Shown one piece after another: positions 15,170-54,383 of a DNA stretch of 64,000 nt (within the stretch, counting starts at the first letter, position 1; every line of letters begins with the position of its first letter). Location: assembly GCA_905181825.1 (NCBI GenBank), contig CAJIZJ010000044.1, positions 1 to 64,000 on the forward strand. The letters are read 5' to 3'. Made by a program: the position numbers and the translations under genes. A model generated the notes under the pieces. The model saw nothing but the letters and a program-made list of their open reading frames with translations. It was not told where the DNA came from and searched no databases. The stretch comes from an uncultured Flavobacteriaceae bacterium. GTDB taxonomy: Bacteria > Bacteroidota > Bacteroidia > Flavobacteriales > Flavobacteriaceae.

Positions 15170-18100
15170 CTACAAAAGAATTGGCTTTAATACTTCTAAA
15201 CCCTCTTGAACAGATTTGATATTTGGAAAACTCATTAAAAGTCGAAGCCCCAAGCGCAGTTGCTTTTCTTTTACAGTGCATAATCTTGGATTCGCTTGAA
15301 CGTATTGTAGCACTTTAGAGAAATGAATACTTTGATAGAAACGACTGTCTTGATCACTAATAAAATACCCAATAAGCCTGTCTTGCTTCATCACTATTTT
15401 CTCAAAACCTAAAGTCGTTGCCAACCATTTAATACGCACACTGTCCAAAAGATCTACTACCTGAGTTGGCAAAGCCCCAAAACGATCAATTAAATCGCGT
15501 TCAAACAACTCTAGTTCAGGTTCAGTTTTCAATGAATTTAATTGTGTGTAGAGACTCAAACGCTCTGTGATATTATTGACAAAATCATCTGGAAACAAAA
15601 GTGAAAAATCCGTATCAACAGTGACTTCTTTTACAAATTCTTTAGTGTTTATATCTTCGTTATATAAATTTTTAAATTCTGTTTCTTTGAGTTCTTCAAT
15701 CGCCTCATTAAGAATTTTCTGATAGGTTTCAAATCCAATATCATTAATAAACCCACTTTGTTCACCTCCCAACAAATCACCTGCACCTCTTATTTCTAAA
15801 TCTTTCATGGCAATATTAAATCCACTTCCTAAAGCAGTGTATTGTTCTAAAGCAGATATGCGCTTTCGCGCATCATCAGTCATCGCATGAAAGTCAGGAG
15901 TAATGAAATAACAAAAGGCTTTCTTATTACTTCTTCCTACACGTCCACGCATTTGGTGTAAGTCACTCAATCCAAAATTATTGGCATTATTAATAAAAAT
16001 GGTGTTGGCGTTTGGGACGTCTAATCCACTTTCCACAATAGTAGTACTGACCAGTACATCAAACTCACCGCTCATAAAATCAAGCATAAGTTGTTCCAGC
16101 TTACGTCCTTCTAACTGCCCATGACCCACACGAATTTTTGCATCGGGTACTAGACGCTGGATAAGCCCCGCCACTTCTTTAATATTTTCAATCCGGTTAT
16201 GAATAAAATAAACCTGCCCTGACCGCTGAATTTCATAATGAATCGCATCCCGAATAATAGTTTCACTCAAACGAATTACTTGACTATCTATGGGGTATCT
16301 GTTAGGAGGTGGAGTGGTAATGACAGATAAATCACGTGCTGCCATTAAACTAAACTGCAAGGTTCTTGGAATAGGGGTCGCTGTCAGAGTCAACACATCT
16401 ACATTGTCTTTAAGCGTTTTGAGCTTCTCTTTGACGGCCACTCCAAACTTTTGCTCTTCGTCTACAATAAGAAGACCTAAATCTTTAAACTTAACTGACT
16501 TATTGACCAGTTGATGTGTTCCAATAATAATATCTAACTGCCCTGATTCTAATTGCTCCAATACTTCTTTTCGTTGTTTGGTGCTTTTAAACCTGTTCAC
16601 ATAATCAATGGTAACTGGAAACTCCTTGAAACGAGCCTTAAATGTCTTGGCATGTTGAAAAGCCAGTATGGTTGTAGGAACCAGAATAGCGACTTGTTTT
16701 CCGTTATCAACCGCTTTAAAAGCAGCTCTTAAGGCCACTTCTGTTTTTCCAAACCCTACATCACCACAAATCAATCGATCCATTGGGCGCTCACTTTCCA
16801 TATCTGCTTTAATATCAGCAGTTGCAGTGACTTGATCCGGCGTATCCTCGTACATGAAGGAGGCCTCTAATTCAAGTTGCATCGAACTGTCCGGCTTATA
16901 CCTAAAACCTGTTTCTAATTTACGCTTCGCATATAGTTTGATTAAATTAAAAGCCACTTCTTTAACTCTTAACTTGGTCTTTTGTTTTAAAACCTTCCAA
17001 GCCTTACTCCCTAGCTTATAAATTTTAGGGAGCTTGCCATCTTTCCCATTAAACTTAGTAATCTTGTGAAGCGCATGAATGCTTAAATACAATACATCAC
17101 GTTCGCCGTAAAACAACTTGATGGCTTCTTGTTTTTTGCCCTCAACATCAATTTTCTGTAAACCTCCAAATTTCCCAATCCCATGATCAATATGGGTGAT
17201 GTAATCGCCTATTTCAAGTTTTGTTAATTCTTTAAGGGTGATGGATTGCTTTTTTGCATAGCCATTTTTTAAATGGAATTTATGATAACGTTCAAATATC
17301 TGGTGGTCTGTATAGCAGACTATCTTTTTATCGTGATCTACAAACCCTTGGTATAAAGACATCACAATTGTTTGACAATGAACCTCCTGATCTACAGTTT
17401 CAAAAATATCGTAAAAACGTTGCGCTTGCTGCGCATTAGAGCAACATATATAATTTTGATACCCTAAATCATGTTGGGTATTTAAATCTTCAATTAATAA
17501 ATTAAATTGCTTATTAAAGGAGGGTTGTGGACTAACGTGAACCTCTACTTTTTGAGTTGCCGCTGTCGCTAGCACAGCATTTGATCCAAATTCAACTACA
17601 GAAAAATCTAGTAACTGAGATTTAAAATTAGTTGAGGTACAAAATAAATCTTCTGGACGACTGTGATTAATTGCTGAAGAAAGTTCTGAATATGCCTCTA
17701 TTGCTTTTTCTTGAAGTGCATCAGTAGCAGCTAAAAAGGCTGAAATATCTTTCGCAAAAACTACTGTATTGGAAGAAATATATTCTAAAAAACTCTGACG
17801 AGTTTCGTTAAGTAATTTATGTTCAATATTGGGTATGATTTGAATTTTTTTAACCGGCTTTATAGAAAGTTGAGACTCTACATCAAAAGTTCGAATGCTA
17901 TCAACCTCATCGCCAAAAAACTCAATTCGATAAGGCTCGTCATTCGAAAAGGAAAACACATCAACAATACCGCCACGAACAGAAAACTCACCAGGGTCTG
18001 TGACAAAATCAACTCTAGAGAATTGATATTCAAAAAGAACCTCATTAAAAAAATCTAGATTAAGTGTTTCTCCAACCGCAAGCTTGAAAGTAGACTTTTC

Positions 18101-23064: not shown

Positions 23065-23111
23065 ACAACACAACATCTTTTATACTATTGTATTTTTTTA
23101 AAAATACTTAG

Positions 23112-53208: not shown

Positions 53209-53364
53209 ATGAACTCACAAATATTTTTTAAGGTCCTGGCAAAAGTTAATAAGATGCTACTTCCTAGCTTAACAAAAAAACAAGTAGATCTCTCTAAAGC
53301 AACTAAATTACAAATGGCTTTGTTTGGCTGGCGACTGTATGTCACTAAAAAAGCACTGGACTAG
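53209..53364 (+). CDS. Conserved-looking 51-aa basic protein
   Basis: A short gene, 51 residues, ATG to TAG. It is basic (10 Lys, 1 Arg) and amphipathic, with pattern FFKVLAKVNKMLLPSLTKK, then DLSKATKLQMALFGWRLYVTKKALD. Very similar short proteins next to unrelated genes in Flavobacteriaceae are, as I recall, often listed as SsrA-binding-protein-like; it does not contain the SmpB fold and I would not transfer that name. Codon usage is like its neighbours. It is divergent from the CaCA exchanger, and its stop overlaps the convergent apt stop by 4 bp. Confidence 0.7.
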   Translation: MNSQIFFKVLAKVNKMLLPSLTKKQVDLSKATKLQMALFGWRLYVTKKALD

Positions 53365-53876
53365 TAGCTTACTGCTGCAAAAACGGGGTGTGCTGCAATT
53401 TTTTTAACCCCTTGAAGAAAGTCAATTTTCATGATAAAATTACATTGCACAATTTGGCCTCCTGCTGATTCTATCATTTTACAAACCGCTTCGGCAGTTC
53501 CTCCAGTAGCCAATACATCGTCGTGAATAAGAACCTTATCTCCTTTTTGGATGGCGTCTTTATGCATTTCTAATACATCAGAACCATATTCTAAATCATA
53601 AGACTGTGAAACCACCTTTCGGGGTAGTTTTCCAGATTTTCGAACAGGTATAAAAGGAACTTTAAGCGCTTGTGCTAACAACATCCCAAAGAAAAAACCA
53701 CGTGCCTCTATAGCCACTACCTTATCTACCTTTTTCGTTAGCAACTGAGATAGTAACAATTCCAAACATTCAGCAACCCCTTCTGGACTCTGTAGTAGAG
53801 ATGTAATATCCTTAAAGTGAATGCCCTCTTTTGGAAAATTAGGCACATCCTGAATGTATGATTTTAGTGAATTCAT
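53361..53876 (-). CDS. apt: Adenine phosphoribosyltransferase
   Basis: Salvages adenine to AMP using PRPP. The protein is 171 aa, single type I PRTase fold. The PRPP-binding loop is VLIHDDVLATGGTAEA with two adjacent acidic residues. The N-terminal HFKDITSLLQSP is the family's hood region and the flexible loop is FIPVRKSGKLPRK. Length is typical. It is monocistronic, downstream of the tRNA-Arg region on the same strand. The convergent 51-aa gene overlaps its stop. Confidence 0.97.
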   Translation of the reverse strand: MNSLKSYIQDVPNFPKEGIHFKDITSLLQSPEGVAECLELLLSQLLTKKVDKVVAIEARGFFFGMLLAQALKVPFIPVRKSGKLPRKVVSQSYDLEYGSDVLEMHKDAIQKGDKVLIHDDVLATGGTAEAVCKMIESAGGQIVQCNFIMKIDFLQGVKKIAAHPVFAAVSY

Positions 53877-53984: not shown

Positions 53985-54023
53985 AAAAAAAGGAACTACA
54001 TTTCTGTAATTCCTTTTGTGACC
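53985..54023 (-). repeat. Second copy of the tRNA-Arg 3' flank (terminator-bearing)
   Basis: Bases 53985-54023 match 54277-54314 across the A-tract, the hairpin GGAACTACA...TTCC and TTTGTGACC, with about one substitution and one length difference. On the minus strand the right end still reads GGGTCAC, close to the tRNA's AAGGTCAC end, but the rest of the tRNA is absent. Confidence 0.7.
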
Positions 54024-54276
54024 CAAGCTTACGAAAGTTCAAACTTTGTTGAGGATTTCAGACACTTTTAATGCTATAAATTTAAATCCTAAAACATACC
54101 CGTAAATAATAGTTAAAGCTGATTCAAATAGGGATTCAATATGTGATTCCTAGATTAAAACAAGTTGAAGATGCATCTGACGAAATGCCAAGAAAGTTTG
54201 AAATAGAAATAATTGATTCCTTGAGCAGATATTCAGATAAAGAGTTAGACAAAGCAGTATAAAGTGTACAATAAAT

Positions 54277-54304
54277 AAAAAAGGAACTACATTTCTGTAA
54301 TTCC
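54277..54304 (-). terminator. Terminator of tRNA-Arg
   Basis: The imperfect stem GGAAcTACA/TGTAaTTCC with a TTTC loop is followed on the minus strand by a run of Ts, right after the tRNA 3' end. Confidence 0.7.
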
Positions 54305-54309
54305 CTTTG

Positions 54310-54383
54310 TGACCTTGACAGGATTCAAACCTGTAACCTCTTGAGCCGTAATCAAGTGCACTATTCAGTTATGCTACAAGGCC
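54310..54383 (-). tRNA. tRNA-Arg (anticodon ACG) with A19/U56 swap
   Basis: A 74-nt tRNA with no encoded CCA. Acceptor GGCCTTG/CAAGGTC (one G-U), anticodon stem CTTGA/TCAAG with loop TTACGGC (anticodon ACG, to be deaminated to inosine by TadA), and T-stem ACAGG/CCTGT. Two nearly invariant bases differ: the D-loop reads AACTGAATA with A at position 19 instead of G, and the T-loop reads TTTGAAT with U at 56 instead of C. The two changes would replace the G19-C56 tertiary pair by A19-U56. Promoter and terminator are intact, so it is likely expressed. Confidence 0.95.

Follow-up and report, generated by a model that had tools for sequence, protein, structure and literature searches.

The closest known counterparts of the locus described here are additive islands, CIMEs and integron arrays. 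According to the part of PMC10872708 that deals with them, the fGI-2 additive islands of 'Ca. Methylopumilus' are inserted at tRNA-Lys, range from 330 bp to 42 kb, and are accompanied by a repeat of the last 20 nt of the tRNA. They resemble the present system in several ways, including islands of variable size at one tRNA, recurring copies of the tRNA 3' end, streamlined aquatic hosts, and many genes of unknown function. They differ in that the units examined here end in a separate motif (hereafter x) that shares only a core with the tRNA, often carry terminators, are in some cases 100 bp long and geneless, and are associated with a serine recombinase (comparison limited to that part of PMC10872708). 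Tycheposons, as portrayed in the same source, are also tRNA-bounded cargo islands of marine bacteria, but they use a tyrosine recombinase and span 4-200 kb (via PMC10872708). CIMEs, in the sections of PMC5704250 devoted to accretion, are integrase-less remnants located between attachment sites and can in principle stand in tandem with other elements. These sections pair tRNA 3' ends with tyrosine integrases and describe site-specific serine-recombinase IMEs as disrupting dispensable genes, so that a large serine recombinase (LSR) at a tRNA 3' end would be unusual by their account (PMC5704250).

By analogy with these systems, the unit described below would work like a CIME-like cassette in an array growing at a tRNA gene. 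Integron arrays share with it the single-gene cassettes, the recombination site at one end, and the row formed behind one anchor, but the anchor here is a tRNA gene and x is not an attC by inspection. The integron attC core is RYYYAAC/GTTRRRY; x reads GTTTGGGTCAC, which does not fit this core, and its assignment as attC was rejected. Staphylococcal SCC likewise comprises serine-recombinase elements that enter the 3' end of a single gene and include tandem and recombinase-less forms, but its target is a protein gene and its hosts belong to another phylum.

The locus lies in a 64,000-bp stretch of contig CAJIZJ010000044.1 of an uncultured Flavobacteriaceae bacterium (the window; features in Table 1), whose genus presumably resembles the Formosa-like marine clade. 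Along the tRNA strand, a tRNA ending in GGTCAC was followed by a terminator, a spacer, x, a second near-identical terminator, and a presumably apt-like gene. Attachment-like sequence was therefore present on both sides of the unit, as the GGTCAC of the tRNA end on one side and as x ending in GGTCAC on the other. The near-unchanged repeat reported beside the tRNA in the preliminary description was real (38 nt, 37/38 identical, 291 bp from start to start), with the first copy starting one base after the reported 53985. Read along the tRNA, it consisted of the last 6 nt of the tRNA (GGTCAC), a 13-bp hairpin and a T run. The two hairpins had folding energies of -14.4 and -14.7 kcal/mol (z = -5.9 and -5.3), and none of 200 shuffles was equally stable. 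The repeat is thus mostly a transcription terminator and not an attachment core, and the common core of the tRNA and of the sequence upstream of the far copy is GGTCAC only. Of the earlier view of the repeat as an att-like tRNA 3' end, the site-specific junction stands, and the attachment core shrinks to these six bases. The x pattern occurred once in the window, as an exact match, with 0.06 occurrences expected at up to 3 mismatches.

Table 1. Coordinates of the tRNA-Arg(ACG) locus in the window.
Feature	Position	Strand	Basis or remark
tRNA-Arg(ACG), anchor of the unit	54309..54383	-	ARAGORN; 3' end GGTCAC
Cassette-like unit, 291 bp	54018..54308	-	From just after the TCAC of the tRNA to the TCAC ending x
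Terminator hairpin 1, near copy (repeat copy 54277-54314)	54279..54308	-	Repeat and folding
Terminator hairpin 2, far copy (repeat copy 53986-54023)	53988..54017	-	Repeat and folding
Motif x, GTTTGAACTTTCGTAAGCTTGGGTCAC, 27 nt, directly before the far terminator	54018..54044	-	Putative attachment half-site and core
Remnant of a small gene, 49 codons	54113..54262	+	Homology; about 40 N-terminal codons absent relative to an 82-aa homolog
Segment of 65 bp shared with a relative	54058..54122	-	83% identity with G016 DNA located about 3 kb beyond the corresponding tRNA
Presumed apt-like gene, beyond the far repeat copy	53361..53876	-	ORF list

The 291-bp unit contained no ORF of at least 50 aa, and accordingly no integrase or transfer gene. 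The plus-strand frame in the spacer was open over 49 codons from stop to stop, with the first common start at 54143, and matched the C-terminal parts of two longer proteins, one of 82 aa in G152 (63% over 38 aa) and one of 64 aa in G255 (61% over 49 aa). Judged by these homologies, it is a genuine remnant of a small gene, in agreement with the gene scraps proposed earlier for the spacer. The remnant had no match in Pfam, while its 82-aa homolog matched PHROG 12031 weakly (E = 1.3e-4) and had no match among phage records. The minus-strand frame at 54039-54149 had no internal stop, yet was not among the ORFs of at least 30 aa with a common start. In same-genus genomes the spacer DNA, which includes this frame, was matched piecemeal only, over 65 bp in G016 and over 20-35 nt in G009, G013, G014 and G002. 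A family-wide DNA search with the spacer returned matches in 53 of 299 genomes at E 0.01; apart from those in G152 and G255, the spacer matches, nearly all of 20-40 nt, were taken as chance.

Fifteen of the 18 same-genus genomes had a match to the region, and the 3' contents were described for 11 tRNA loci, several contigs ending just behind the tRNA. This comparison with relatives, suggested in the preliminary description, revealed a conserved 5' side, with neighbours that we take to be MBL-fold, clpS-, prmA- and tpiA-like genes, and a 3' side that varied from genome to genome. The 3' side held a tyrosine integrase followed by phage-like genes in G001 (L063 232-12304; Pfam Phage_integrase, immediately adjacent to the tRNA-Arg(ACG)), the 3' terminus of a serine recombinase gene in G015 and G003, and other inserts in G016, G011 and G004. 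In G002, a DUF1295 gene and further DNA separated the tRNA from apt, which was 2.9 kb away. Relatives thus showed repeated insertion at a single tRNA, with recurring copies of its 3' end, and the window holds one unit. A separate arrangement was seen in G004 (L033 3699-4099), where a tRNA-Arg copy broken after the first 47 nt matched was followed by an 86-aa ORF, presumably GIY-YIG-like, and then by a complete tRNA-Arg(ACG).

Beyond the window, x was found at 15 places in seven of the 18 same-genus genomes, two of these places being further copies in the window's own genome, and the reversed pattern was found at one place. The 3-mismatch pattern matched four of 249 family genomes, and the weak match in G171 was taken as chance. 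A degenerate x pattern, built from the then-known copies and therefore dependent on the window's copy, had matches in 47 stretches when 84,980 genomes were searched, distributed over 36 assemblies (assemblies and taxon labels counted by hand from record titles). Thirty-four of these assemblies were labelled Flavobacteriales, Flavobacteriaceae, Flavobacteria, Crocinitomicaceae, Polaribacter, Formosa, Ulvibacter or Bacteroidetes; the other two were labelled 'Proteobacteria' and Thermodesulfobacterium, the latter match looking like chance. Carriage by phages was also considered: the x pattern had no match in viral contigs, and of the four stretches matched by the LSR peptide pattern none was confirmed.

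Motif x formed the far end of units starting just after the TCAC of tRNA-Arg or of another x, and at some boundaries 10-17 nt of true tRNA 3' end stood in its place. The sequence to the right of the core was unconserved between cassettes, unlike that of a two-sided attachment site. A terminator-like hairpin followed 26 of the 52 x matches with 45 bases of flank (53 matches in total), against 45 of 1060 random windows, so that half of the matches were without such a hairpin by the same test. In G063 (L094 8340-10025) and G013 (L059, from 9558 on), x-bounded units stood in stretches in which no tRNA was found, beside genes that we assume to be UDP-glucose-dehydrogenase-, rpe- and rpoD-like; these units point to a second anchor site or else to an array extending beyond the stretch seen.

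With unit boundaries set at the TCAC that closes a tRNA-Arg, an x or a tRNA-end fragment, 31 distinct units shorter than 4 kb were delimited, eight of which rest on tRNA-end fragments at up to 6 mismatches, some possibly matched by chance. Sixteen units were 99-166 bp long and had no ORF of 50 aa; the remainder comprised the window's unit of 291 bp, one of 301 bp with a 56-aa ORF (G013), and 13 of 0.9-3.3 kb with ORFs. Units therefore ranged from geneless stretches of about 100 bp to single-gene cassettes, and larger polysaccharide clusters also terminated at x. Among eight cassette proteins, six had no Pfam match at E 0.001, and the others contained a Fib_succ_major domain or surface-protein domains. 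Ten copies of a 101-bp unit were 89-99% identical in pairs, with 84 of 103 alignment columns invariant; the alignment omits the second tandem copies present in L154 and L155, as well as L117 (assembly of L116). These copies were located after tRNA-Arg(ACG) (2), tRNA-Arg(TCG) (3), the 3' half of a broken tRNA-Arg(ACG) (1; L154), and x (4). Occupied and vacant versions of the boundary were observed across species: in three hand-picked pairs of genomes from different species, the sequences broke at TCAC, and 41-43 of 45 bases were similar between the DNA after the tRNA and that after the inserted unit.

Two further arrangements were recorded. At L101 (about 16780-17340; G088), an intact LSR element had at its right end five 112-bp tandem units, each bearing a terminator-like hairpin and ending in GGCTCAC instead of GGTCAC. 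In a large-genome genus (L256/L257; G419:C3, about 99-129 kb), three near-identical stretches with an x end and a terminator lay about 7.4 kb apart and are probably an array of big units. A transposon with a 5-bp target duplication was considered as well; no inverted repeats were visible by eye at the mini-unit ends.

Some of the larger cargo ended at or near x. In G013 a sugar-acid gene cluster (KDPG aldolase, PfkB kinase, UxaC, UxuA) was present twice, the copies being 98.9% identical over 7,919 bp, with the alignment stopping exactly at the last base of x, and G014 possessed two cluster copies 99.98% identical over 4,623 bp, with the alignment stopping 3 bases beyond x. A 7,645-bp stretch encoding a sulfatase, a hybrid two-component regulator and part of a TonB receptor was 99.8% identical between G013 and G060, which belong to different genera, and was located near tRNA-Arg(TCG) in the former and near tRNA-Arg(TCT) in the latter; it was not x-bounded on the side seen. 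For scale, ftsZ-side DNA was 71.6% identical between G013 and G063 (another genus; the comparison is with G063, not G060). The estimated contamination of G013 was 8%, and both 7,645-bp stretches were on a contig with the tRNA (575,788 and 155,733 bp).

Concerning the recombinase, the serine recombinase gene of G015 encoded Resolvase and Recombinase domains, with a zinc ribbon below its cut-off; it was frameshifted, and its 3' end overlapped the tRNA end. A search with the intact relative from G088 recovered 20 LSR loci in 17 genomes (397 family genomes searched). In 15 of them the LSR abutted tRNA-Arg at TCAC (8 ACG, 4 TCG, 3 TCT), the same boundary as that of the units; two abutted tRNA-Leu, and three had no tRNA in the stretch, one stretch being incomplete. 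LSR-type left ends stood directly behind x in 7 of the 47 loci, six of these with a tblastn match to the LSR C terminus, and the x-bearing G060 and G063, outside the window's genus, contained LSR fragments at 83-85% identity. Two intact LSR elements at tRNA-Arg had an x-like right end with a terminator, 26.4 kb away in G368 and 16.6 kb away in G088 (0.0 and 0.017 matches expected per region, respectively, from 60 shuffles). The G088 right end had 8 mismatches to x, and the 3-mismatch pattern found no x in that genome. In the seven other elements (G068, G027, G093, G097, G217, G303, G409) no right end was found, all candidates within 38-46 kb having 10 or more mismatches, and the elements of G242 and G377 ran off their contigs. 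When the right flanks of the intact G088 and G368 elements were used to look for a vacant LSR site, no clean one was found: the G088 flank consisted of the five tandem units, G088 being the sole genome of its genus compared, and the G368 flank recurred in seven congeneric genomes, where the short loci showed no tRNA and longer stretches placed a tRNA-Arg 3-5 kb upstream in two of the seven (TCG in G420, ACG in G415).

More distant LSRs (L195, L197, L198, L199) were preceded by a conserved gene of about 290 aa and a divergent gene of about 150 aa, as in G088, where neither had a Pfam match; some of these loci ended at tRNA-Met or tRNA-Leu.

No LSR gene was present in the window's unit, and the window's genome, which is 76.65% complete, had no PF00239 match. 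The serine recombinase catalytic domain was found in G013 and G014 only among ten x-bearing genomes tested, and was absent from the other eight (G000, G002, G009, G011, G012, G060, G063, G280), including the 99% complete G060 and G063. An LSR, if it is the agent, would thus work in trans and would often be absent. These counts also bear on the strongest competing explanation, in which the same cassette arrays are moved by a tyrosine recombinase, either a phage-type integrase or an Xer-like enzyme, using the tRNA 3' end, the LSR being one visitor among several. The tyrosine integrase in G001, the boundaries with true tRNA 3' ends, and the presence of tyrosine recombinases in 15 of 15 genomes tested (general PF00589 search), also in those without a serine recombinase, all speak for it. 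It leaves aside what links x with LSRs of this family (its place at the right end of intact elements, the left ends after it, and co-occurrence), and we regard it as unlikely. The tyrosine integrase that the preliminary description suggested looking for at this tRNA does exist, in G001, but the recombinase associated with x is the LSR, and the balance leans towards the LSR being the enzyme responsible.

That the locus is a site-specific relic or cassette is very probable. With fair confidence, the complete reading is that the window holds tRNA-Arg(ACG) and one short cassette belonging to a system of site-specific integration in marine Flavobacteriaceae, with the LSR presumably acting in trans; the unit itself is probably an integrase-less cassette of a tRNA-Arg-anchored array, putatively mobile. 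A cassette would begin immediately behind TCAC, in many cases bring a terminator along, and close with x, the last bases of which are GGTCAC. Recombination at the core would place it between the TCAC of the tRNA and the former downstream sequence, leaving the tRNA intact and supplying a terminator, and an LSR provided in trans would carry out the exchange. The new x would add another boundary of the kind at which cassettes are seen, and arrays would thereby grow at the tRNA. Neither excision nor transfer was seen. The window's unit may have been inserted small or may have shrunk from a larger element. The earlier claim of an integration relic thus retains its site-specific junction and its gene scrap, while there is no need to postulate a large element that was almost wholly lost, as units of about 100-300 bp recur. 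Neither outcome named in the preliminary description as refuting such a relic was observed.

The window's two terminators are nearly alike, whereas one simple insertion into a native site predicts different ones. In G009, x was followed by a window-type terminator, about 25 bp like those behind copy 1, and then DUF1295-side DNA as in G002. We infer a mosaic origin, through tandem duplication, or two units with the same terminator class, followed by loss. A terminator copied by local tandem duplication or homologous recombination alone, with no site-specific event, would suit a repeat that is mostly terminator, the same terminator type behind tRNA-Ala in G014 and G017, and the tandem units in G088, L154 and L155; it leaves unexplained x, the recurrence in other genera, and the presence of one unit at different tRNA-Arg genes. 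It is very improbable, x being the main reason. The decay of a second tRNA-Arg at the far copy, raised in the preliminary description, would be in line with a short T-arm-like inverted repeat in x around GTTTGAAC with a GGTCAC end (by inspection) and with the broken tRNA-Arg copies beside an intact one in G004 and in L154, but it was rejected as next to impossible, since ARAGORN detected no tRNA there (the window's only other tRNA is tRNA-Asp at 23111) and the sequence upstream is x, a conserved motif that recurs elsewhere, also at loci where no tRNA was found.

The cassette reading can be extended beyond this locus. Tentatively, and with rather more doubt than for the window itself, marine Flavobacteria may possess an LSR-based integron-like cassette system with tRNA-Arg as anchor, x as cassette site, and cassettes with their own terminators, in which ORF-less cassettes of 100 bp, single-gene cassettes and whole polysaccharide gene clusters move between genera. 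In the open-licence literature, no description of motif x or of an LSR at tRNA-Arg in Flavobacteria was recognised. The window would hold one modest, putatively mobile example of this system. With x as a searchable end motif, cassettes, array growth and cargo become countable, and the LSR would be a possible means of placing DNA downstream of tRNA-Arg while leaving the tRNA unharmed. The exchange of polysaccharide gene clusters among marine flavobacteria is a question of wide interest, and the slotting of cassettes at tRNA-Arg is likely a route by which genes, such as those for the use of algal sugars, are swapped.
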